The notes under the pieces were generated by a model, which saw only the letters and a program-made list of their open reading frames with translations, did no database searches and had not been told where the DNA came from. The translations under genes and the position numbers were made by a program. Of a stretch of 11,744 bases of DNA, positions 1 to 11,744 are shown one piece after another. Where the stretch lies: the NCBI GenBank assembly GCA_017940955.1, contig JAGAXP010000274.1, forward strand, positions 1 to 11,744. Reading direction: 5' to 3'. Origin of the DNA: Oribacterium sp. (GTDB lineage Bacteria; Bacillota_A; Clostridia; Lachnospirales; Lachnospiraceae). Numbering within the stretch: position 1 is the stretch's first letter; every line of letters starts with the position of its first letter.

Positions 1-798
1 AACAATGGCTATAATATCGTTCACAGCCCGTTGGAGATTGATGATGAGGGCGTATGGAGAATGAACTTTTCCGATATGGAGAAAAAGATCGTTGATAATA
101 AGATCCATACAGCCATATTCTGCTCACCTCACAATCCGTGTGGCCGTGTATGGGAGAGGTGGGAGATAGAGAAGGCCATGGAGTTGTTCAGGAAACATGA
201 TGTCTTCGTTATATCCGATGAAATATGGTCGGACATCATCCTGAACGGACATAGACATATCCCGACCCAGTCTGTCTCCGAGGATGCCAGGATGCGTACT
301 GTGGCACTCTATGCGCCGTCAAAGACCTTTAACCTTGCAGGACTTGTGGGAAGCTACCATATCATTTACAACAAGTGGATCAGGGAGAGGATTGAAAAAG
401 AATCATCATTGTCACATTACAATGAAATGAATGTTTTATCCATGCATGCCCTTATAGGTGCTTACAAGCCGGAAGGATATGAGTGGGCCGATGAGTTAAA
501 GGCAGTACTCAGCGAAAATGTAAACTATGCCTGTGACTATATAGCTTCCCACTTTGAGGGACTCAGGGTCAGCAAGCCGCAGGGAACCTATATGCTTTTT
601 GTGGACTGCAGCAGGTGGTGCGAAAATCATGGGAAAACTATCGAAGACATAGAGCATGCGGCATGGGATGTGGGAGTTGCCGTTCAGGATGGAAGGATGT
701 TCCATGGAAACTGTCATCTTAGAATGAATCTGGCCCTTCCCCTGTCCAGAGTAAAAGAAGCTTTTGAACGCTTGGATAAGTATGTTTTTAATGCTTAG
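1..798 (+). CDS. MalY/PatB-type PLP-dependent aminotransferase / C-S beta-lyase, 5' truncated by window
   Basis: Fold-type I PLP enzyme of the aminotransferase class I/II family, MalY/PatB branch. Known members cleave C-S bonds (cystathionine beta-lyase, cysteine desulfhydrase) or transaminate. The reading frame is open from base 1, so the true start and the N-terminal part of the small domain lie upstream; the TTG at 31 is not the start. Visible landmarks are CSPHNPCGRVW (nt 121-153, including the conserved Asn), SDEIW (nt 214-228, the Asp that contacts the PLP ring nitrogen) and APSKTFNLAGL (nt 313-345). The probable Schiff-base Lys is at 322-324. Near the C-terminus, LRMNLALP carries the Arg expected to bind the substrate carboxylate. 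The visible 265 residues fit a family of about 390. A 183-bp AT-rich gap separates it from the NRPS genes, so it may be a housekeeping neighbour or may supply a precursor; the sequence does not decide. Confidence 0.85.
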   Translation, partial: NNGYNIVHSPLEIDDEGVWRMNFSDMEKKIVDNKIHTAIFCSPHNPCGRVWERWEIEKAMELFRKHDVFVISDEIWSDIILNGHRHIPTQSVSEDARMRTVALYAPSKTFNLAGLVGSYHIIYNKWIRERIEKESSLSHYNEMNVLSMHALIGAYKPEGYEWADELKAVLSENVNYACDYIASHFEGLRVSKPQGTYMLFVDCSRWCENHGKTIEDIEHAAWDVGVAVQDGRMFHGNCHLRMNLALPLSRVKEAFERLDKYVFNA

Positions 799-981
799 AT
801 CATAGCTTCATAAGAGGCTTTGCTTCGAGGGGGGAATTTAGCGTTCTCTAAGAAGACAATAATAAATCTCAAAATATTTCCATATAATTTTAATATTCTG
901 CTTATAGTAGTTAAAGATTTTGACGACACGTTTATATAGTTTTTTTGATTGCAGGGTTTAAGTTTTTAGAGAGGAACAAGC
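799..981 (+). promoter_or_regulatory. AT-rich intergenic region, probable NRPS operon promoter
   Basis: This is the only sizeable non-coding stretch in the window and is much more AT-rich than the flanking genes from about 850 onward. Possible promoter elements are TTGACG at 920-925 with TTTGAT at 944-949 (18-nt spacer), and an isolated TATAAT at 883-888 with no good -35 in front of it. Neither is strong, so the start of transcription is uncertain. A similar element (TTATAGTAG at 902-910, TTATATAGT at 932-940) recurs 30 bp apart and could be a weak operator-like repeat or chance in AT-rich DNA. A strong ribosome binding site, AGAGAGGA (968-975), precedes the NRPS 1 ATG by 6 nt. No convincing rho-independent terminator for the aminotransferase gene is visible. 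Confidence 0.35.
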
Positions 982-3921
982 ATGTCAAAAGTGATCGACT
1001 CTTTTTTTGATTCAGTAAAAGAAAATCCTGATGCGCCTGTGTTGAGCGACTGCAGTGCGGTCAGTCTCACCTACCTTGAACTTGATATACTGTCAGCACG
1101 GGTTTATAGGTATCTGAAAGAAAAAGGTATAGGACGGGAGGATTTTGTGATGATCCTTCTGCCCAGAGGTGTCTTGCCCTTTGTCGTGATGCTCGGTGTG
1201 TGGCGGGCAGGTGCCGCCTTTGTGGCGGTCGAAGAGGGTTATCCGGAAGAACGTGTAGCCTTCATAAAAAAGGACTGCGGCTGCAGACTGACGATAGATA
1301 CCAATGAGTGGAAGGAGATCCTGAAAATGGAGCCCCTGTCGGGATGTGAGCAGGTTCTTGAGCATGATGCCGCCTTTGCGGTATATACTTCAGGTTCCAC
1401 CGGTAATCCCAAGGGAGTTCTCCATGAATACGGAAACCTGGATATCATAGCCGCGTCCGTGACCTTTGATGTGGTATCCTTCGGACTTATCGCTCCGACC
1501 AATTTTGTTGCCTCGGTCATAGGTTATCTTGCAATACTGTTTCAGGGTTGCAGCATGTTCGTCCTTCCGTATTCCGTGATCAAGAATCCCCCGGCACTGG
1601 TAGACGTTTATGTTAAGAACAACATACATACGGCATTCTGTGTTCCGACCGTTTACAGGCTTTTTTCAAAGATACCGACTCTAAAGGTCATTGTTCTGTC
1701 CTCCGAACCCACCAGGGGTATCTGGTCAGAAGATCCCGAAGTGAGTATATTTAACTTCTATGTTTCAAGCGAGACAGGATTCATCGCTTCTGCAGCAAAG
1801 CTTGATAAGCCGAATGAGAATGCGCCCATAGGACATCCGATGACAGGGTTGAAGATGATCCTTCGGGATGAAGCGGGAAATATCGTCCCGGACGGTGAAA
1901 CCGGTGAGATCTGTGTTGAAAACCCATATGTACGCGGATATATCAATCTTCCCGAACAGAATGTAAGAGCCTTTATAAACGGTGAATACCGCACCGGAGA
2001 TCTGGGAAAGATTAATGAAGACGGAGAGTTTGTAGTGGAAGGCCGCGCCGATGATATGGTAAAGATAAACGGCAACCGTGTGGAGCCCGGAGAGGTTGAA
2101 GAGGCGGTACACCGGCTGCTTGGTGTTTCGGAAGTGATGGCCAGGGGATTTACTGAGGGAGATGATGCCTTTATCTGTCTTTATTATACGGATGATATTG
2201 AGCTTGATGCAGAGAAGGCGAGGAAAGCTCTGTTAAAGGTCCTCCCCTATTACATGATTCCGGCTCATTTCATGCATATCGACAGCCTTCCGCGTACCGC
2301 AAACGGTAAGGTTTCCCGCAGGATGCTCCCAAAGCCAGAAATCGTTTCAAAGGAGGATACCTATGCCGAGCCGAAAACCCCGGAAGAAAAGGCATTGTGC
2401 GATGCAATGGCCAAAATCCTTTCCGTTTCGCGTATCGGTGCAAGGGATGATTTCTACACCCTTGGCGGCAGTTCGATCCTGGCCATGGAACTCATAGTCA
2501 GTTGCGATCTTCCGGAGCTGAATGTCACCCAGATCTTCCGCGGACGTACTCCTGAAAAGATCGCGGCTCTGTATCTTGAAGAGCGTGTGCCTGACAGCGG
2601 ACTTTCGAGAAAAGACCGCATCAAAAAGGCAATGACCAGATCTTATCCTCTGACATACGAACAGTTATATATGTTTGATTATCAGTTATATACACCAAAA
2701 TCCACAATGCTCAATATAGCAGGCATGCTTAAGTTTAATGAGGATCTCGATGCCGAAAGGCTGAGGGATTCCATAAATGCGATGATACAAAGCCACCCTG
2801 CGCTTCTGACTTCACTTTCGTATAATGAGGATGGTGAAGTTGTCCAGCGCTATACTCCGGAGCTTTTCGTGCCTGTAGAGATCGAGGAGATTTCCGAGGA
2901 CGAGATTGAAGAGCTGGCGGATAACCTGGTTCATCCCTTTGACGGTCTCATGAAAAGATCTCTTGTAAGGAACCGTCTGTTTCAGACAGAGGAAGCCCTT
3001 TACTGGTTTTACGAGATCCATCATATGTTTTTTGACGGTGCTTCGGGCAAGATCATGATAAAGGAGGTATGTGATCTTTATCTGGACAAAGAGTATCCTG
3101 CGCCGAAGGAACCGGACGGATACTATCTCATGCTCCATGAACGTGAACACCATAAGCTCAGCGAACAGTATGCAAAGAGCCGTGAGTATTTTGAAAACCG
3201 CTACGACGGTACCGATTGGAGCATACGGCTTGACTGCGAGATGGAAAGCCGAAAAAACGGCTATGATGAAATGGAAATGCTGCTTGACCTGTCTGAGGAT
3301 GAGTTAAAAGAGCTTGAAGAAGTCTCCAATCTCGGGAAAAACGGGATATTCATGATATCAGAGCTTCTTGCCATGGCTGCGATGAACGGGAAAAAGGATG
3401 TAATGACAGTATGGGTCTACAAGGGCAGGGATTCCAGAAACCTGACTGATATCCTGGGCCTGCTTTTCAGGGAGCTTCCCGTTGCGCTTTCTCTTTCCCC
3501 GGATATGACTATGGGTGAGATCTATGCGGATGTTGCCGAACAGATCAGCTCCGGCATAGCTCACTGTGATTATCCGTATATCGATAAAGGTTCTGCCGTA
3601 AGGGAAAATGATCATTTCATCTTCATATATCAGGAGAATAACTGGAACTGTGCAGACGAGATGCCTCTTGATATGGAAGATGTCGATATCGATTTTCCGG
3701 ATATCGCTTCCGAGACCGCCATGGATGTGGAGATCATCGACACGGATGAGGGTATCCTCATGTTTCTTGAATTCTCCGATGACAGATATCGCGAAGAGGA
3801 TGTGAAGCAGTTCATGGATATGATGGTGAGCTTTGACAGGGCGATGCTCAGCTTAAGAAAGCATCCGGAAACAACACTTGAGGATCTTTTCAAGGAAGCA
3901 GATCTTCCTTTTCCCGGATAA
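982..3921 (+). CDS. NRPS protein 1, starter module A1-PCP1-C1 with atypical (non-alpha-amino-acid) adenylation domain
   Basis: 979-residue NRPS that activates a starter acid, tethers it and hands it to protein 2. A1 (about 5-450) has YTSGSTGNPKG (135-145), YRTGDL (336-341), a variant A8 loop GRADDMVKINGNRVEPGEVE (354-373) and NGK with catalytic Lys443. The A5 motif is NFYVSSE instead of NxYGPTE. The position equivalent to GrsA Asp235 is Val176 (nt 1507-1509), and the hand-derived pocket is V A I F V S F F I K. PCP1 (about 465-535) carries LGGSS with phosphopantetheine Ser498 (nt 2473-2475). C1 (about 553-970) has an intact HHMFFDG (680-686, nt 3019-3039), but its DILGLLFRELPV segment (823-834) departs from the usual C5 pattern. 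The ATG at 982 has AGAGAGGA 6 nt upstream and starts directly at the A domain, with no preceding C domain. It belongs to an operon with the next gene, 24 nt downstream. Domain calls are secure; the substrate is inferred. Confidence 0.93.
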   Translation: MSKVIDSFFDSVKENPDAPVLSDCSAVSLTYLELDILSARVYRYLKEKGIGREDFVMILLPRGVLPFVVMLGVWRAGAAFVAVEEGYPEERVAFIKKDCGCRLTIDTNEWKEILKMEPLSGCEQVLEHDAAFAVYTSGSTGNPKGVLHEYGNLDIIAASVTFDVVSFGLIAPTNFVASVIGYLAILFQGCSMFVLPYSVIKNPPALVDVYVKNNIHTAFCVPTVYRLFSKIPTLKVIVLSSEPTRGIWSEDPEVSIFNFYVSSETGFIASAAKLDKPNENAPIGHPMTGLKMILRDEAGNIVPDGETGEICVENPYVRGYINLPEQNVRAFINGEYRTGDLGKINEDGEFVVEGRADDMVKINGNRVEPGEVEEAVHRLLGVSEVMARGFTEGDDAFICLYYTDDIELDAEKARKALLKVLPYYMIPAHFMHIDSLPRTANGKVSRRMLPKPEIVSKEDTYAEPKTPEEKALCDAMAKILSVSRIGARDDFYTLGGSSILAMELIVSCDLPELNVTQIFRGRTPEKIAALYLEERVPDSGLSRKDRIKKAMTRSYPLTYEQLYMFDYQLYTPKSTMLNIAGMLKFNEDLDAERLRDSINAMIQSHPALLTSLSYNEDGEVVQRYTPELFVPVEIEEISEDEIEELADNLVHPFDGLMKRSLVRNRLFQTEEALYWFYEIHHMFFDGASGKIMIKEVCDLYLDKEYPAPKEPDGYYLMLHEREHHKLSEQYAKSREYFENRYDGTDWSIRLDCEMESRKNGYDEMEMLLDLSEDELKELEEVSNLGKNGIFMISELLAMAAMNGKKDVMTVWVYKGRDSRNLTDILGLLFRELPVALSLSPDMTMGEIYADVAEQISSGIAHCDYPYIDKGSAVRENDHFIFIYQENNWNCADEMPLDMEDVDIDFPDIASETAMDVEIIDTDEGILMFLEFSDDRYREEDVKQFMDMMVSFDRAMLSLRKHPETTLEDLFKEADLPFPG

Positions 3922-3945
3922 GATCATCAGATAAGGATAAAGATC

Positions 3946-6900
3946 ATGTTAGACAAAAAAGAACTAGAGGAAATACTTAAGCTGTCAAAGGGACCGGAAC
4001 TGAAGTATGATGCGTCCCTTACCTGGCTGGACCTTTTTGAGGAACAGGTGAAGAAAGACCCCGGTCATATCGCGGTGGCGGATGAGTACGGAAGCCTCAC
4101 CTATGAAGAACTTGACCGCCTCTCCGATGAGCTGGCTGCGGCTCTCGTCGAAGACGAGAAAGTAAAGCCGGATGAATTTGTTGCGGTGAGACTTGACCGT
4201 GAAAAAGAGTTTTTTGTGGCCGTTACCGCCATTTTCAAGGCAGGCGCCGCATACCTTCCCATCGACCTCGAATCCCCGTCGGGGCGCATCTCCTATATGC
4301 TGCATGACTCCGGGGCAAGGCTGACTCTTACGAAAAAGAGTGTTCTGCGTCTTTGTTCAGCGGGAAGGGGCAGATCCCTTTCATCCTTCAGGTGCAGACC
4401 GGATGGGAGGGCATATATGATCTACACCTCGGGCTCCACCGGAGAGCCGAAGGGAGTCGTGATACCGCAGCGGGCCCTGACTAATTTCGTTCATGCCATA
4501 AGACATCATTGGGGACTCGGAAAACACAGCCGCATCGCCCTCCATGCAAACTTCGCCTTTGATGCTTCTGTCGAAGATATATTTCCTCCTCTTTGTGCAG
4601 GCGGAAGTGTCTTTATAATTCCGGAACGGATGAGAAAGGATGTTTTTGAGGTTCGGGATTTTATTAAGAAAAATAATATAAACGGGGGATGCTATTCAAC
4701 CCTCTTCGGTCAGCTTCTCGGAATGGATGAGACTCCTCTTGATGTGGACTATTTTGTTCTAGGCGGCGAGGCCATGACTCAGGTTCCCAATGTCAGGGGA
4801 AAGATCTACAACACATACGGACCTACTGAGTTCACGGTGGATTCAACCTTTTACAAAATAAAAAAGGGGCGCGGATACGGAAATATTCCGATCGGGAGAC
4901 CGCTTTGTAACTGCTCGGCCTACATAGTAAATGAAAAGCTTGAGCTTATCCAAAGGGGTGAAACAGGTGAGCTTTGTATGGCCGGACCCCAGCTTGCACT
5001 GGGTTATTATAACCGGCCGGAGCTTACAAAGGAAAAATTTACTACTCTTGATCTGCAAAACGGAGAGACGGTCCGGATCTACCGTACCGGGGATCTTGCA
5101 CGCTGGAATGAAGACGGGCAACTTGAGTATTCCGGCCGTATCGACACTCAGGTAAAGCTTCGGGGGTTCCGTGTCGAGCTTGGCGAGATCGAACGCTGTG
5201 CCTTGTTATTTACGGGAATTAGCCAGACTGCTGCAGAGGTACGCAAGGACACGCTTTGTCTTTATTATACTGTTTCGGCAGATGTGGACGAGGAGGAGCT
5301 GAAGACCTTCATGGCCGGAAAGCTTGTCGATTTCATGGTTCCGCAGATCTTCATAAGAATGGAGGAGATGCCTGAGACGGCAAACGGAAAGATCGACCGG
5401 AAAAAACTGCCCGAGCCTGTTTACAGGTCGGCGGGGGAATATGTTGCGCCTTCAACAAAAGAAGAATGCATGGTGGCAGAGGTCATGGCAGAGGTTCTTT
5501 CCATGGGAGAGGCCGTAAGCGTTACCTATGACTTCTTTGAGCTTGGAGGAGATTCCATCAAGGCGATCCGTATGGTAAGCATCCTTCGAAACAAAGGCTT
5601 CAGGGTTTCCGTGGCCGATGTAATGAAGGGACGCACGGCAGCGGACATAGCAGCACTGCTGCATGATGCTGATGAAGCTACGGATAAGCAGGAGATCGAC
5701 GATAAGGAAAGGGTCTGGAGTGAGGAAAGCATAAAGGCAGTCTATGACAGATTTGAAAAGCAGGGAGAAAAGGTGGAGCGGATATATCCTCTGACCCCCA
5801 TGCAGGAAGGCATGCTCCTTGAACACGTTTCACATCCCGAAAGCTTTGGCTACCGTATAGCGGATATTTACGAATGTACCCGCCGTGTTGATGAAGAGGA
5901 GCTGCGCAGGGCCGTGGATGCTCTGGCAAAAAGGCACGAGACGCTCCGCTCCGCGATCCTGTACAGTGGTCAGATAGAACCCCGTCAGGCTGTGATCGAC
6001 CGGGTATTGCCGGTCACATATATTGACAGGACGGACACCCCGGACATTTTTGAAGAGCTCATGAAGCTTCGTACCAACATACTTGAAACTGCCTTTGATC
6101 CGGAAAACAAGCCTATGACACAGTTTGTTTATGTGAAATACGGAAAGCCCTCCGATTATCTCATCTTTGTTTCACATCACATAATAACGGACGGCTGGAG
6201 CTTTGATGTACTGATAAAAGACCTTAATGCCCTGCTTCGGGGTGAGGAGATACCCGAAGGCATCCCGGGACTCTATGAAAGGGTTGTCCGCAGACAGCTT
6301 TCACTTGATCGGGATGCGGCCGTAAACTATTTTACGGAAATGCTTTCAGGTTATGAAAATTTTGCCGGCATCCCGTTCTGGGGTGAGGTTCCCGAAAAGG
6401 AACGTTCAAAGGATGACCAGTTCCGTTTTACATTATCTTCCTCCGATACAAAAAAGCTTTCAGAGCTTTGCCGAAGATCAGGCGCCACTTTATCGGACGG
6501 CTTCAACCTCATCTGGGCTCTTGTTCTGAAGGTTTTAAACCGCATCGATGATGTGGTATTTACCACCATAGCCTCGGGACGTGACGGATCTGATATGGAC
6601 TTAAGTGACAGCGTGGGTCTTTTCCTGAATCCCGTTCCGGTACGTGCAGACTTCGGTAACGGAGCAGAAAACGCCCGGACGATGCTGAAAAAACTGCGTG
6701 AACAGGCAAACGCGTCAAAGGCCTATGATTTCTGCCCTCTTGCTGACATTCAGGATGCCATGGGAGGAGGGATCAGGCTTCATGGCTTCAACATTTCCTT
6801 TGAAAACTACAGTGAGCCTGACACAGGAGAGGCAGTTCTGGTTCCGATGTATATCCATGATGACCATGATGCCGACGGTGTGGGAGTGGATGCCATCGTG

Positions 6901-9900
6901 CAGCCGGACGGGAGAGTTTTTATTATTTTGATCTATGATCCCCTTGTTTATCATGAGGCGGAACTGAAACGTTTATCGCTCCTGTTTGGGAATGTAGTAA
7001 GATGGGTCACAAAAAACCCGACAATACCGCTTTCAAAGCTGGAGCCGACAGGCCGTGAAGAGCTGCCTGAGCTTATGGCGCTTTCAAAGGGAGATGAGCT
7101 TGCGTCAGATGACGGGGCGGTATGGCTTGACGGCTTTCGGCATCGGGTTAAAATGGCTCCCGACCGGCCGGCCGTCAGCGATAATGAAGGTCAGTATACC
7201 TATGCAGAGCTTGACAGGGTATCTGACAGTGTGGCCGCATATCTTATTAAGCAGGGCGTGAGGAAACGTGATTTTGTGGCTGTGCATATGGGAAGAAAAA
7301 AGGAATTCTTTGCGGCAGTCATCGGCATCCATAAGGCGGGTGCCGCCTATGTGCCCGTCGATCCCGAATATCCTAAGGGCCGTGTTGAATATATGATCCG
7401 GGATTCGGGCGCGAAGCTGATCCTCACGGAAAGAGATGTTGATCAGGCAGTTTCGCAGCTGCCCGATCCTGAATCCGTAAACCGCGTATCTTTCCGGGAT
7501 CCTGCCTATATGATCTATACCTCGGGCTCCACGGGACTTCCCAAGGGCGTTGTCATAGGACAGAGGGCGTTAAACTATTTCGTGCATTTCATAGCGCATG
7601 AGTGGAGGCTTGGCGTGGACAGCCGCATCGCGCTTCATTCAAGCTTTTCCTTTGATGCGGCCGTGGAGGACATTTTTCCCGCACTGACAGTCGGGGGGAC
7701 TATATTTGTAGTTCCGGAGGATGTCAGAAAAGATATATCGATGATGCGTGAATATATCACGCAAAACAGGATAAACGGCGGCTGCTATTCCACCCAGTTC
7801 GGACAGCTTCTCGCAATGGATGAGACTCCGCTTGACGTGGATTACTTCGTTTTGGGCGGTGAGGCAATGACGCAGATCCCCAATGTCAGGGGAAGGATAA
7901 TCAACACCTACGGACCTACCGAATTCACGGTTGATGCGACATTTTACGAGGTTGAAAAGGGACGGGAATATAAGAATATACCCATCGGCAGACCGCTGTA
8001 TAACTGCTCGGCCTACATTGTAAACGATAATCTTTCACTTGTACCGAGGGGAGTTGTGGGTGAGCTCTGCCTTTCGGGTCCCCAGATGGCTGACGGCTAC
8101 TGGAACCGTCCGGAGCTGACTGCTGAAAAATTTACAGTGCTAAAGATCGGAAACGGTGAAACAGTAAAGGTCTACCGCACAGGAGACCTTGCAAGATGGA
8201 ACGAGGAAGGCATGCTTCAATATGCCGGACGCATAGATGATCAGGTGAAGCTTCGGGGATTTCGGGTTGAGCCGGGTGAGGTGGAGCGTCGTGCCATGCA
8301 ATTTGCAGGAATGCAGGAGGCGGCTGCCGTGGTGCGAAAGGAAACCCTGTGTCTTTATTATACGGCAGACAGCGAGGTTGATGAAAAAGCCCTCAGGGAT
8401 TTCATGGCTTCAAGCCTGACAGACTACATGGTTCCCGGAGTATTTGTTCGTATGGAGAAAATGCCTCTCACACCGGCCGGCAAGCTGGACCGCAGGGCAC
8501 TTCCGGAACCGCGTATTGAGGCTACCGGAAGAGATTACCTTCCTCCGGAAAATGAGATTGAAAAGAAGCTCTGCAAGGCTTTTGCCGCCGTTTTGGAGAT
8601 GGATCCCGATACTGTTGGAAGAGATGAGGACTTTTTTGATCTGGGCGGTAATTCTATCCGTGGAATGCGCCTGGTGCTTCTGGCGGATATCGAAGGGTTT
8701 ACCACCACCGATCTTTTCAGGCTTCATACTCCGGAAAAGATAGCTCAGAAGCTTTTGTCCGGTCAGAGCAGATTCCTGCCCGAAGAGGAAGAAAGGGCAA
8801 GAAAGCTTTCTGTTCCGGCTACCGTCGGTCAGATCAGTATGATAGATTACCAGTTCATACACATCAATTCCGTAATGTATAATATCTCCGGACTGTACCG
8901 CTTTCCGGCAGACATTGATGTGGACAGGCTCAAAGAAGCTATAAAAACAGCTTTTGGAAATCACCCTGCCCTTCAGACAGTGCTCGAATTTGATAATGAT
9001 GGAAATGTGGTCCAGCGCTATTGTCCCGGACTGTTAAGTGAGGTCGGCATTATTGACGTACCTGCCGACCAGAAGGATGAAACATTAAAAAAACTTGTGC
9101 GTCCTTACAGACTGTTTAAGGAATCGCTGGTGCGTGCGGGTCTGTACCGCTTTGAAGACTGTGTAAGGCTTTTTATCGATATGCATCATGTGATTTCAGA
9201 CGGTTTTTCCATGCAGGTTCTGCTCAATGATATTGCGCAGGCATATGAGGGCAGACCTCTTTTGCAGGATAATTATTATACCTGGCTTTTAAATGAAAAG
9301 AAGGCAATGGAAACCGAAGAGTATGCCAGTGCGGAACGGTATTTCAGAAATAAACTCGGGTCTCATGACTGGTGCAGCGTGCCCACACCGGATTTTGATT
9401 CTATCGAATCGGATCTGGCAGAGGAAACGGCTGAAATGGGACTGACGATGGAAGATATGTCTGCTGCCGAAGCACGTCTCAAAGCCTCAGGTAATGTACT
9501 GTGCATAACGGCAGGGATACTTGCGCTTCAGGAATACTGCAGCCGGTCTGATATCCTGGTAACATGGATAGACAGCAACAGAGCAGACATAAGGTATGAA
9601 AATACCGTGGGCATGTTCTTCAGGAGCCTTCCCGTGGCCGTTCATACCGAGCAGTTTGCGTCTCTTGATGCACTCATAAGAGAGGTCTCTGAGCAGGTAG
9701 TCGCAGGCTTTGCAAACAGCATCTGCAATTATATGGAAACTCTTCCGAGCCGGAAGAATTTTGATGATGATATGGAGATCAATTACCTTGCAGGTCTGGG
9801 TGAAGAGGATCAGCTTAAGTCTGTCGGTGCCGTTTCGGAAGAAGTGCCCTATGACAGCGATAATATTTCCGCCGGAGAGCGGGTGGGCGTGTATATCAAT

Positions 9901-10044
9901 GAAAATGACGGAAACCTCTTTACCGAGATCGCCTATCAGAAAAAGGCATATGCGGACGGCAGCATGGCGCGGTTTCTGGCTCTCTTCAGGAAGTATCTGA
10001 GATTTATAGTAACAGAGGAAAAGGAATCTGATGAAAAAGATTGA
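3946..10044 (+). CDS. NRPS protein 2, two elongation modules A2-PCP2-C2-A3-PCP3 with terminal C3
   Basis: 2032-residue NRPS predicted to add two residues to the starter from protein 1. A2 (about 28-490) has YTSGSTGEPKG (160-170), YGPTE (291-295), YRTGDL and Lys482. PCP2 has LGGDS with Ser537 (nt 5554-5556). C2 (about 612-1030) has HHIITDG (744-750). A3 (about 1061-1521) has YTSGSTGLPKG (1191-1201), YGPTE (1322-1326) and Lys1513. PCP3 has LGGNS with Ser1570 (nt 8653-8655). C3 (about 1622-2020) has HHVISDG (1747-1753). A2 and A3 give the same predicted code, D A E C V G T V D K. No epimerization, methylation, thioesterase or reductase domain is present. The protein begins inside what is normally a C-A linker: residues 13-31 match its own internal linker at 1046-1064, so C1 of protein 1 serves A2. 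AAGGA (3933-3937) lies 8 nt before the ATG. The acidic tail ends 14 nt inside the MATE gene. Basic substrate (Lys/Orn-like) and C3-mediated release are inferences. Confidence 0.94.
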   Translation: MLDKKELEEILKLSKGPELKYDASLTWLDLFEEQVKKDPGHIAVADEYGSLTYEELDRLSDELAAALVEDEKVKPDEFVAVRLDREKEFFVAVTAIFKAGAAYLPIDLESPSGRISYMLHDSGARLTLTKKSVLRLCSAGRGRSLSSFRCRPDGRAYMIYTSGSTGEPKGVVIPQRALTNFVHAIRHHWGLGKHSRIALHANFAFDASVEDIFPPLCAGGSVFIIPERMRKDVFEVRDFIKKNNINGGCYSTLFGQLLGMDETPLDVDYFVLGGEAMTQVPNVRGKIYNTYGPTEFTVDSTFYKIKKGRGYGNIPIGRPLCNCSAYIVNEKLELIQRGETGELCMAGPQLALGYYNRPELTKEKFTTLDLQNGETVRIYRTGDLARWNEDGQLEYSGRIDTQVKLRGFRVELGEIERCALLFTGISQTAAEVRKDTLCLYYTVSADVDEEELKTFMAGKLVDFMVPQIFIRMEEMPETANGKIDRKKLPEPVYRSAGEYVAPSTKEECMVAEVMAEVLSMGEAVSVTYDFFELGGDSIKAIRMVSILRNKGFRVSVADVMKGRTAADIAALLHDADEATDKQEIDDKERVWSEESIKAVYDRFEKQGEKVERIYPLTPMQEGMLLEHVSHPESFGYRIADIYECTRRVDEEELRRAVDALAKRHETLRSAILYSGQIEPRQAVIDRVLPVTYIDRTDTPDIFEELMKLRTNILETAFDPENKPMTQFVYVKYGKPSDYLIFVSHHIITDGWSFDVLIKDLNALLRGEEIPEGIPGLYERVVRRQLSLDRDAAVNYFTEMLSGYENFAGIPFWGEVPEKERSKDDQFRFTLSSSDTKKLSELCRRSGATLSDGFNLIWALVLKVLNRIDDVVFTTIASGRDGSDMDLSDSVGLFLNPVPVRADFGNGAENARTMLKKLREQANASKAYDFCPLADIQDAMGGGIRLHGFNISFENYSEPDTGEAVLVPMYIHDDHDADGVGVDAIVQPDGRVFIILIYDPLVYHEAELKRLSLLFGNVVRWVTKNPTIPLSKLEPTGREELPELMALSKGDELASDDGAVWLDGFRHRVKMAPDRPAVSDNEGQYTYAELDRVSDSVAAYLIKQGVRKRDFVAVHMGRKKEFFAAVIGIHKAGAAYVPVDPEYPKGRVEYMIRDSGAKLILTERDVDQAVSQLPDPESVNRVSFRDPAYMIYTSGSTGLPKGVVIGQRALNYFVHFIAHEWRLGVDSRIALHSSFSFDAAVEDIFPALTVGGTIFVVPEDVRKDISMMREYITQNRINGGCYSTQFGQLLAMDETPLDVDYFVLGGEAMTQIPNVRGRIINTYGPTEFTVDATFYEVEKGREYKNIPIGRPLYNCSAYIVNDNLSLVPRGVVGELCLSGPQMADGYWNRPELTAEKFTVLKIGNGETVKVYRTGDLARWNEEGMLQYAGRIDDQVKLRGFRVEPGEVERRAMQFAGMQEAAAVVRKETLCLYYTADSEVDEKALRDFMASSLTDYMVPGVFVRMEKMPLTPAGKLDRRALPEPRIEATGRDYLPPENEIEKKLCKAFAAVLEMDPDTVGRDEDFFDLGGNSIRGMRLVLLADIEGFTTTDLFRLHTPEKIAQKLLSGQSRFLPEEEERARKLSVPATVGQISMIDYQFIHINSVMYNISGLYRFPADIDVDRLKEAIKTAFGNHPALQTVLEFDNDGNVVQRYCPGLLSEVGIIDVPADQKDETLKKLVRPYRLFKESLVRAGLYRFEDCVRLFIDMHHVISDGFSMQVLLNDIAQAYEGRPLLQDNYYTWLLNEKKAMETEEYASAERYFRNKLGSHDWCSVPTPDFDSIESDLAEETAEMGLTMEDMSAAEARLKASGNVLCITAGILALQEYCSRSDILVTWIDSNRADIRYENTVGMFFRSLPVAVHTEQFASLDALIREVSEQVVAGFANSICNYMETLPSRKNFDDDMEINYLAGLGEEDQLKSVGAVSEEVPYDSDNISAGERVGVYINENDGNLFTEIAYQKKAYADGSMARFLALFRKYLRFIVTEEKESDEKD
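4027..5415 (+). repeat. A2 adenylation-domain copy of an intragenic duplication (partner 7126-8508)
   Basis: The A2 domain of NRPS 2 (residues 28-490) is paralogous to A3 (residues 1061-1521), about 3.09 kb downstream in the same gene. In the substrate-pocket region, residues 246-330 and 1277-1361 align without gaps with 72 of 85 identical. The DNA around the A3 motif (4417-4442 and 7510-7535) is also nearly the same. This points to tandem duplication or later homogenisation between modules. The stretch just before the A3 motif (about 130-155) is not conserved between the copies and is notably Arg/Ser-rich in A2. Confidence 0.8.
7126..8508 (+). repeat. A3 adenylation-domain copy of an intragenic duplication (partner 4027-5415)
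   Basis: Second copy of the duplicated adenylation domain (residues 1061-1521). All ten pocket positions match those of A2: Asp1237, Ala1238, Glu1241, Cys1280, Val1302, Gly1304, Thr1321, Val1329, Asp1330 and Lys1513. Differences from A2 are scattered, mostly conservative, and outside the pocket. The carrier and condensation domains that follow (PCP3-C3) are not copies of those following A2, so the duplicated unit seems to cover the C-A linker and A domain rather than a whole module. Confidence 0.8.
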
Positions 10045-11395
10045 ACTTTCGGACCATTTTACCTGTACAAAGCTTTTATTATACTCCCTTCCCGCAATCG
10101 GAGAGATGATCGCCATCTCCTCCTTTGAGTTTGTGGACGGACTGTTTCTGACAAATTATCTGGGCGTGACGGCCTTTGTGGCGATCGACCTGATCATACC
10201 GCCGTTTATGATTCTCTTTGCCCTGGGATATATGTTCGGCGCCGGGGCAAATGCCCTGGTGTCCCAGTATCAGGGAAAGGGAGACACCAAAACCGCAGGA
10301 GAGATCTTTTCTCTTTCAACAGCTGCCATGATGATCGTGGGAATACTGGTTGCCGTGATCGGCATGTGGCAGATGCCGAATCTTTCGATGATGGTCGGTG
10401 CAGAGGGAGAGAAGGCAGTGATCAGCAATACCTACGGAATGATATTAATGGCGGGACTGCCGGCTTTTATTATCAATGCAGCTTTTCAGTCGCTTTGGAT
10501 CACGGCGGAAAAGGCAGTGCTGGGTCTCATTTTTTCCATCTTAAACGGGGTTTTAAATGTCGCTTTGGACTGGCTTTTCATGGGACCGTTTCATATGGGG
10601 ACTGCAGGAGCGGCATTGGCGACGGTTCTGTCGGCTGTCATACCGGCTGTGATCACGCTCCTATACTTCCTTTTGCCCAATCCCTCCACACTTCGTTTTG
10701 TACGCTTCCCGTTAAAGAGACTGAGGGAGCTTCCCGGGATCTGTTTCAACGGTGCATCTGAAATGATAAGTGAGCTTGCCGTAAATCTGACCATGCTCAT
10801 AGCCTATAAACAGGTGCTCAGGACCATAGGAGATGCGGGTGTTGCGGCCATGGGGGCGTACAACACCATAATCGAGGTCTTCATAGGTGTATTCTACGGT
10901 GTTTCCACGACCGTTGTCACGATATCAGGGTATAAGTACGGGAAAAAGACGGATGATGAGCTTACAAGTCTTGTGCGTACAAACAACATTTTAATGGCTG
11001 TCTGCGGCTCCCTGATGTTTCTGGTTTTAGTAGTGTTTTCAAGGCCTCTGGCTCTGGCTTTTTTCAATGATGATCCGGCAGTATGCGATCTGACTGTGCA
11101 TGTACTCCGTATCATGGCCTTTTCGTGTTTCTTTTACGGATTTGAGTTTGTTACGGGTTCCACCTTTACGGGAATGGGTGACGGATTGAGCTCAATGATC
11201 ATTGCCGCATTCGGATCCTTCATCGCACCGGTTGCAATGATATTTGCCATGCCGGCACTTTTCGGAGCTGAAGGATTGTACTGGGCCATGCCTGTCGCAT
11301 TATTTTTGACTGCGGTACTGTGTGTGATATTCCTGAAAAAGAGATATCCGGTATTACTGAAAAACACTGACAGAGATGATGCTCTGGAGGAATAA
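10031..11395 (+). CDS. MATE-family multidrug/metabolite efflux transporter, putative exporter of the NRPS product
   Basis: 454-residue polytopic membrane protein of the MATE family (DinF/MepA-like size), whose members use Na+ or H+ gradients to export organic compounds. About twelve hydrophobic segments run from residue 15 to 436. An N-half loop, SQYQGKGD (78-85), has a counterpart in the C-half at SGYKYGKKTDD (299-309), as expected from the family's two-fold internal repeat. GASEMISELAVNLTM (241-255) opens the second half in the family style. There is no signal peptide, and a charged C-terminal tail follows the last helix. The ATG at 10031 overlaps the NRPS 2 stop by 14 nt. AGAGGAAAAGGA (10014-10025) lies inside the NRPS 2 reading frame, 5 nt before the start, so translation is probably coupled. 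Context makes it the likely exporter or self-resistance pump for the peptide; the family call is firm, the substrate is inferred. Confidence 0.93.
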   Translation: MKKIELSDHFTCTKLLLYSLPAIGEMIAISSFEFVDGLFLTNYLGVTAFVAIDLIIPPFMILFALGYMFGAGANALVSQYQGKGDTKTAGEIFSLSTAAMMIVGILVAVIGMWQMPNLSMMVGAEGEKAVISNTYGMILMAGLPAFIINAAFQSLWITAEKAVLGLIFSILNGVLNVALDWLFMGPFHMGTAGAALATVLSAVIPAVITLLYFLLPNPSTLRFVRFPLKRLRELPGICFNGASEMISELAVNLTMLIAYKQVLRTIGDAGVAAMGAYNTIIEVFIGVFYGVSTTVVTISGYKYGKKTDDELTSLVRTNNILMAVCGSLMFLVLVVFSRPLALAFFNDDPAVCDLTVHVLRIMAFSCFFYGFEFVTGSTFTGMGDGLSSMIIAAFGSFIAPVAMIFAMPALFGAEGLYWAMPVALFLTAVLCVIFLKKRYPVLLKNTDRDDALEE

Positions 11396-11411
11396 GGAAG
11401 CAGTTTTTATT

Positions 11412-11699
11412 ATGCTTGAGGTAGGAAATGTAAAAAGATCCATGCCGGATTACGATAAGGTTGTTGATCTTTTTAATGAGGCGTTTCCCGACTACGAGTT
11501 GTATCCGATATGGGTGATGAGACTGATGGCACTTAGAAAGGGTGTTGATTTTCTGGCATTTTACGACGGTGACGAGTTTATAGGGATCAACTACGGTGCC
11601 TATACGGACAGGGAAACTCTTGATATAGAGGAATACAAAAAGGCCGTTAATAAACTGTCATTTGGTCTTGTCAGACTAAAGATCAAAAAAGTTAAATAG
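11412..11699 (+). pseudogene. GNAT-like acetyltransferase remnant, probable internal deletion
   Basis: A 95-residue frame resembling the two ends of a small clostridial GNAT N-acetyltransferase. The first part has a DYDKVVDLFNEAFPDYE helix and a FLAFYDGDEFIGINYGAYTD strand pair, like beta2-beta3 of the fold. It then jumps at about residue 58 to IEEYKKAVNKLSFG, which looks like the C-terminal tail of such proteins. The middle that normally holds the acetyl-CoA-binding R/QxxGxG/A loop (roughly 80-100 residues) is absent, so it should not be catalytic. The ATG at 11412 is preferred: an AAGGAAG (11394-11400) stands upstream, though 11 nt away. The in-frame ATG at 11376 lies inside the MATE gene and has no ribosome binding site. 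It is 16 nt past the MATE stop and probably co-transcribed. It could instead be an intact small protein of unknown role; the deletion reading is an inference. Confidence 0.5.
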
Positions 11700-11744
11700 T
11701 TATACATTGAATAAGAAATAATCAGTACGTATTAAATATTCTGA
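11700..11744. other. AT-rich intergenic end of window
   Basis: The 45 bases after the last stop codon are strongly AT-rich. I see no hairpin, terminator or start of another gene. The change of composition suggests the NRPS gene set ends here, but a terminator could lie just outside the window. Confidence 0.4.

Follow-up and report, generated by a model that had tools for sequence, protein, structure and literature searches.

A1 and the described starter domains

The adenylation (A) domains of the nonribosomal peptide synthetases (NRPSs) GrsA and TycA keep an Asp at position 235 (GrsA numbering) and YGPTE in motif A5, and McyG has a phenylpropanoid role. Starter A domains without Asp235 are already known. 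An aliphatic or small residue is described at 235, Val or Gly for alpha-keto acids (PMC5238615) and Ala or Gly for alpha-hydroxy acids, with Val in McyG, and StsA, in which Met has replaced the A5 Pro, requires that change (PMC11253843). Here we describe NRPS1, an adenylation-carrier-condensation (A-T-C) protein of 979 amino acids (A1-T1-C1; 982..3921; open reading frame (ORF) with Pfam AMP-binding, PP-binding and Condensation matches) encoded in a window of 11,744 nucleotides from Oribacterium sp., the window being the whole stretch of DNA analysed (assembly GCA_017940955.1, contig JAGAXP010000274.1, positions 1 to 11,744), in which all features given below lie on the + strand. A1 (residues 1-455; 982..2346; Pfam and domain bounds) is a starter by position because no condensation (C) domain precedes it.

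The stretch at 1447-1788 encodes residues 156-269 of NRPS1. Motif anchors, for which we assumed GrsA spacings, together with a MAFFT alignment with the A2 and A3 domains of the downstream synthetase NRPS2, gave A1 the code VAIFVSFFIK, made up of Val176 at position 235 (1507..1509), A177, I180, F219, V238, S240, F259, F267 and I268 (GrsA 236-331; 1510..1785), and Lys443 (2308..2310), the equivalent of the catalytic Lys517 in motif A10. No acidic residue occurs at any of these ten positions. A2 and A3 both have Asp at 235 and share an identical code, DAECVGTVDK, which by code comparison is Orn/Lys/Arg-like. Motif A5 of A1 reads YVSSE (1759..1773; canonical YGPTE), with Ser262 at the position of Pro325. 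In an independent phmmer alignment with LgrA A1 (6mfz), V176 aligns with the Asp of FSFD, and S262 with the Pro of GYGPTE; the text of a review (PMC11253843) links position 325 to LgrA P483 and StsA M415. An earlier note on this DNA had claimed Val176 opposite the Asp of A2 and A3, this same code, the altered A5 motif and a gap of 20 residues from position 235 to the next Pro, equal in A1 and A2; the two alignments, the motif anchors and a count on the sequences bear all of this out.

A1 matches the AMP-binding family and its fold (AlphaFold2 model, mean predicted local distance difference test score (pLDDT) 87.0), and its best sequence matches in the PDB are alpha-amino-acid A domains of the LgrA, GrsA and TycA type. 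With TIGR01733 (amino acid adenylation) A1 scores 226.7 bits, below the cut-off of 317.4, whereas A2 (365.1) and A3 (368.8) lie above it; this is still the highest of the model scores of A1, a long-chain fatty acyl-CoA ligase model coming second at 177.0 bits. The VIA ranks of A1 were ties across NRPS A domains and singled out no substrate, and no weight attaches to the absence of StsA from the 50 entries listed.

Each of the described systems resembles A1 in part. LgrA shares its fold but keeps Asp and YGPTE. The aryl-acid ligase EntE likewise has no Asp at 235 and no A5 Pro (AMPAQGVVNK, FGMAE), but it is a stand-alone ligase, distant on a long branch. McyG, compared by description, has the same Val at 235 and is called Phe-activating (PMC11253843). 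StsA, CesA-A1 and PksJ, compared by codes and descriptions, are like A1 in their aliphatic residue at 235 and, in StsA, in the missing A5 Pro, but differ in the rest of the code and in the ketoreductase described with such modules, none being reported here. In its parts the A-T-C protein also resembles the described Oaa fatty acid amide pathway of gut Clostridia (OaaA, OaaACP, OaaC), likewise of gut Firmicutes, with one A, one carrier and one C unit joining an acyl group to a nucleophile. The Oaa units, however, are separate proteins, and their (D/H)HxxxD motif is mostly followed by Ser or Ala, unlike the HHxxxDG of the fused protein.

Conservation of the signature and the starter clade

Homologues were taken as the best 120 of 7,178 matches in a protein search that scored the 7,993 candidates sharing most words. 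The family alignment had 119 rows, made up of the window A1 and the 118 homologues left of these 120 once P0015 and P0027 had been dropped for length. The homologues share 41-91% identity with the query along the full protein; as the rows were picked by similarity to the query, the counts describe conservation within the family and not frequency among A domains. Position 235 is Val in 115 rows, Ile in three, Ala in one and Asp in none. Position 325 is Met, Ser, Ala, Cys, Thr or Gly and Pro in 0/119; Met accounts for 16 of 24 rows in the closer part of the family and for 6 of 95 in the remainder. Ser302, Ser326 and Lys517 are kept in 119/119, and a 25-row alignment shows little or no variation at many positions in the regions of motifs A3, A5, A7, A8 and A10.

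In the window and the fetched genomes of relatives, Asp235 was present in all 16 internal A domains and in 5/5 first A domains preceded by a C domain. Six other synthetases that begin with an A domain (L090, L091 and L095-L098, including two near-duplicate pairs) have Val or Ala at 235 of that domain; their codes were varied (VAQF[FY]GMSAK, AIHVNGASIK, VALFLGAGGK and VVQFTGGGGK). In a maximum-likelihood tree of 56 A domains, the 27 starters without Asp235 (21 A-T-C rows and these six) formed one clade with support of 100/98. The A-domain phylogeny had been proposed as a check in the earlier note, and it places A1 inside this clade; the loss of Asp235 in A1 is more than chance. Sister to the clade (97/91) was a long-branched A domain of L102 that also lacks Asp235 (IVLYLVLLPK) and was omitted from the count of proteins beginning with A because about 450 residues precede it. 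L101, an AMP-binding protein of 521 amino acids without Asp235 that is not an NRPS, fell outside the starter clade. An aryl-acid origin of A1 of the EntE type was rejected, EntE lying far away on a long branch whose exact place is unsure.

Substrate, acceptor and competing explanations

Since Asp235 is lost, the catalytic residues are intact and A1 falls in a clade of starters without Asp235, A1 most likely activates a hydrophobic carboxylic acid that has no amine. The earlier note had proposed a hydrophobic acid, fatty acids included, and the general part of this proposal agrees with the code without acidic residues, the intact residues of catalysis, the starter position and the clade, whereas fatty in the sense of long-chain is disfavoured by the bulky pocket lining, itself a weak proxy. 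As a crude measure that ignores backbone shifts and the Asp-to-Val change itself, the summed side-chain volume over eight pocket positions was 1221 for A1 and 1140 for the consensus of the wider family, with reference codes at 1127 for Leu, 1086 for Ile, 1076 for Val, 1261 for Gly and 1291 for Cys, and with 943 for PksJ, 997 for CesA-A1 and 1052 for GrsA (code assumed). Because the lining is bulky we place long chains after short acids, and we favour a short or branched aliphatic acid as the probable substrate, with an alpha-keto acid as the main rival. Short and branched aliphatic acids are abundant in the rumen.

T1 (2392..2568; Pfam) carries LGGSS and is followed by C1 (2638..3885; Pfam), whose motif is HHMFFDG. 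Among the 120 family proteins HHxxxDG was found in 111 and NHxxxDG in eight, one giving no match. In the available description of the Oaa C class, the residue after the motif Asp is Ser in 42%, Ala in 36% and Gly in 17%; membership of C1 in that class was rejected on its motif, though 17% of the class also have Gly. In a tree of 42 C domains, 16 A-T-C C domains and the terminal C domains of NRPS2, L003 and L102 formed a 19-row clade (95/100). C-like rows of L092 and L093, each from the end of an ORF piece, lay outside it and grouped with the window C2 and the first C domain of L003. As C1 clusters with terminal C domains, it may pass its acyl group to a small nucleophile in free form rather than to the amine held on T2. 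The A-T-C protein gave the only PF00668 match (E 1e-10) in 17 of the 42 relative genomes searched, which were drawn from 80 loci and are metagenome-assembled genomes (MAGs) of unreported completeness, so that this count may be inflated. The A-T-C protein may thus well act alone in many hosts, where the acceptor would probably be a free small amine or alcohol.

NRPS2 (A2-T2-C2-A3-T3-C3; 2032 amino acids; 3946..10044; Pfam, alignments and C-domain tree) ends in the terminal domain C3. Synthetases of its type, which begin with an amino-acid A domain and have no starter of their own, adjoin the A-T-C gene in the window, L001 and L003, and this arrangement makes trans-loading of T2 by the A-T-C protein a reasonable guess, which we put at about even for the window. 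The A-T-C protein has the look of a single-module line, accompanied in the window by a dimodular synthetase of Orn/Lys type. The N-acylated product foreseen in the earlier note consequently stands in part: the A-T-C protein beside a starterless NRPS2 argues for it, whereas the grouping of C1 with terminal C domains and the 17/42 genomes argue against it.

With the absence of Asp235 and the A5 Pro, the intact catalytic residues, the clade, the C1 grouping and the gene order read from sequence, we infer substrate class, acceptor and export as follows. A1 would be a working starter that activates a neutral, amine-free hydrophobic acid, most likely short or branched aliphatic, and loads it onto T1, from where C1 would hand the acyl group to a nucleophile. 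The window A-T-C protein may well serve as a separate starter acylating the residue on T2, the first A domain of NRPS2 being Orn/Lys-like; the product would then be an acyl-dipeptide carrying two basic residues, which C3 would release and the MATE-family protein encoded at 10031..11395 (Pfam, NCBIfam) would export. We consider this scheme as a whole, in which initiation of NRPS2 and MATE export carry a further perhaps, somewhat probable.

Several observations weigh against it. The block of the A1 model that bears Lys443 has a pLDDT of only 72, and the volume proxy is weak, since the Leu code (1127) and that of PksJ (943), whose substrate is the keto acid matching Leu in its side chain, differ by 184. 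Loss of the A5 Pro is compatible also with alpha-keto or aryl acids. In the C tree C1 lies with the three terminal C domains (95/100) and apart from the first C domains of other synthetases, which speaks against simple transfer to T2, and in L003 the gene order differs, an NRPS2-like gene lying upstream of the A-T-C gene. The last two points bear on an account that could hold alongside any substrate, in which C1 does not feed NRPS2 and the two synthetases are separate lines, each ending on a free acceptor and sharing the exporter alone. Such an account agrees with C1 and C3 falling in one clade of terminal domains, with the 17/42 relative genomes lacking another C domain and with a gene order that is not fixed, but all three NRPS2-type synthetases observed adjoin an A-T-C gene and have no starter of their own; we rate it as possible, at somewhat less than an even chance.

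Regarding the substrate, an alpha-keto acid (for instance a branched-chain 2-oxo acid) activated as in StsA, CesA-A1 and PksJ would in a system without a ketoreductase give an alpha-ketoacyl cap. StsA also pairs a hydrophobic 235 with an A5 Pro-to-Met change (PMC11253843), Met is concentrated at 325 in the closer family rows as given above, and a related starter, that of L095 and L096, reads AIHVNGASIK, near the VGMWNGASVK type and resembling 2-oxoisocaproate codes. A1 itself has the hydrophobic 235 (V176) and non-Pro A5 (S262) of the alpha-keto class but not the VGMWNGxSxK-like remainder, having only V235 and K517 (plus I331 with CesA-A1) in common with VGMWNG[ATV]S[VI]K codes and equalling none of the five alpha-keto codes in one table of the available text (PMC5238615). 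Moreover, Pfam reported no ketoreductase domain in the A-T-C protein or NRPS2, and the residue before position 325 is Gly in StsA as described but Val in A1 and Ala in most relatives, so that we regard this reading as unlikely. Loading of a medium- or long-chain fatty acid, which would yield either a lipopeptide or, as in the gut Oaa pathway, a fatty acid amide, appears improbable: gut Clostridia do build fatty acid amides from separate A, ACP and C proteins, according to the accessible account, and the A-T-C protein has the same parts fused, but the lining is bulky (a weak point), the family motif is HHxxxDG or NHxxxDG where the Oaa class mostly has Ser or Ala after the Asp, and A1 scores higher with TIGR01733, though under its cut-off, than with the long-chain ligase model. 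Finally, A1 might be dead or still activate an ordinary alpha-amino acid, some amino-acid domains being without Asp235 (a beta-alanine code has V235). The absence of any acidic code residue, the retention of Lys517 alongside the missing Asp235 (both 119/119) and the largely invariant A3, A5, A7, A8 and A10 regions make this very unlikely.

Gene neighbourhoods and wider setting

The closest genome relatives are Lachnospiraceae MAGs, L001 from roe deer abomasum (92% identity over the A-T-C protein) and L002 (88%). A scan of genome contigs kept 80 loci of at least 552 relatives found, to which further loci of the family of L002 were added for the neighbour counts; L083 is the same place as L045, one locus thus being counted twice, and L084, L086 and L088 are without a full A-T-C match. 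Among the 80 locus titles, a ruminant is named in 19, and 38 bear the tag RUG, which we take to mark a series of rumen genomes. Two layouts recur, each often incomplete: STAS, A-T-C, carboxylesterase; and SpoIIE, RsbW, A-T-C, MATE, STAS. The gene directly after the A-T-C gene encodes a carboxylesterase in 49/75 testable loci and a MATE protein in 17/75, and STAS lies directly before it in 37/79. At least one of STAS, SpoIIE and RsbW was found in 24/29 A-T-C stretches and in 3/33 control stretches, all of 16 kb, the controls coming from ten of these genomes. Its p-values are to be taken as a guide only, as the neighbours had themselves supplied the profiles and the loci lack independence. The fullest set by Pfam is that of L016, with SpoIIE, HATPase_c_2, MATE with a C-terminal HATPase_c_2, STAS, A-T-C, COesterase and a Bax-inhibitor-like gene. 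No STAS, RsbW-like ATPase or SpoIIE gene was found beside the A-T-C gene in the window, L002, L003 or L004, and the window's own branch is without partner-switching genes. In the family of L002 the A-T-C protein is patchy, occurring in 8/397 genomes (E 1e-200).

We know of no product of the A-T-C family. In the literature searched, mostly without subscription papers, we found no description of the A1 signature, the fused module of starter A and terminal C or its regulatory neighbours, nor of a linkage of A-T-C genes to carboxylesterase or to MATE with STAS, RsbW and SpoIIE. The subtype suggested to be undescribed may accordingly be new in its signature, starters without Asp235 being known as such. 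Pertinent to this setting are the available parts of PMC13142362 and of a rumen survey of biosynthetic gene clusters (PMC8241843), in which NRPS clusters make up 5,346 of 14,814 clusters and whose main text, in the part available, does not contain the words adenylation and condensation; we also drew on the accessible text of PMC4455996, PMC10949194 and PMC12283262. Acyl-capped products could be predicted by a direct rule from a clade of amine-free starters whose signature is fixed, and the lone A-T-C genes with their regulatory neighbours suggest a small pathway to acyl conjugates that is coupled to a switch acting by protein phosphorylation, in hosts living in high short-chain fatty acid. As a speculation that we hold to be doubtful, the lone A-T-C protein of ruminant-gut Firmicutes could be a minimal complete synthetase, with starter A and terminal C in a single module, by which a short-chain acid of the rumen becomes a secreted acyl conjugate. 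It would form one system with the MATE exporter (in some loci joined to an RsbW-like kinase domain), the carboxylesterase and a SpoIIE-RsbW-STAS switch, wiring the making, export and sensing of a community signal, and the window would represent a branch that recruited the module to start a longer peptide.

A number of further features were seen in the loci. MATE proteins with a C-terminal RsbW-like HATPase_c_2 are encoded just upstream of STAS and A-T-C at L016:4209-5975 (by Pfam), L027:6433-8199 and L077:7876-9651 (by profile matches), and MATE-cluster ORFs of 588-611 amino acids occur in nine loci. Carboxylesterases of PF00135 that contain GESAGG and have a hydrophobic tail at the C-terminus lie directly downstream of lone A-T-C genes at L029:12952-14622 and similar places. 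The A-T-C copy of L003, in the region from 9881, has an in-frame TAA. In the window a 107-amino-acid ORF (11376-11699; ORF list) without a Pfam match comes after the MATE gene, and upstream of NRPS1 lies the 3' part only of a gene for a PatB-like pyridoxal phosphate enzyme, a truncated C-S lyase/aminotransferase (1-798; Pfam, NCBIfam). Genes for an FtsX-like permease and a HlyD-type fusion protein stand directly upstream of A-T-C in the 88% relative (L002:1612-5433), and a gene for a Bax-inhibitor-1-like membrane protein recurs, its cluster being found in eight loci and the copy at L016:11016-11867 by Pfam.
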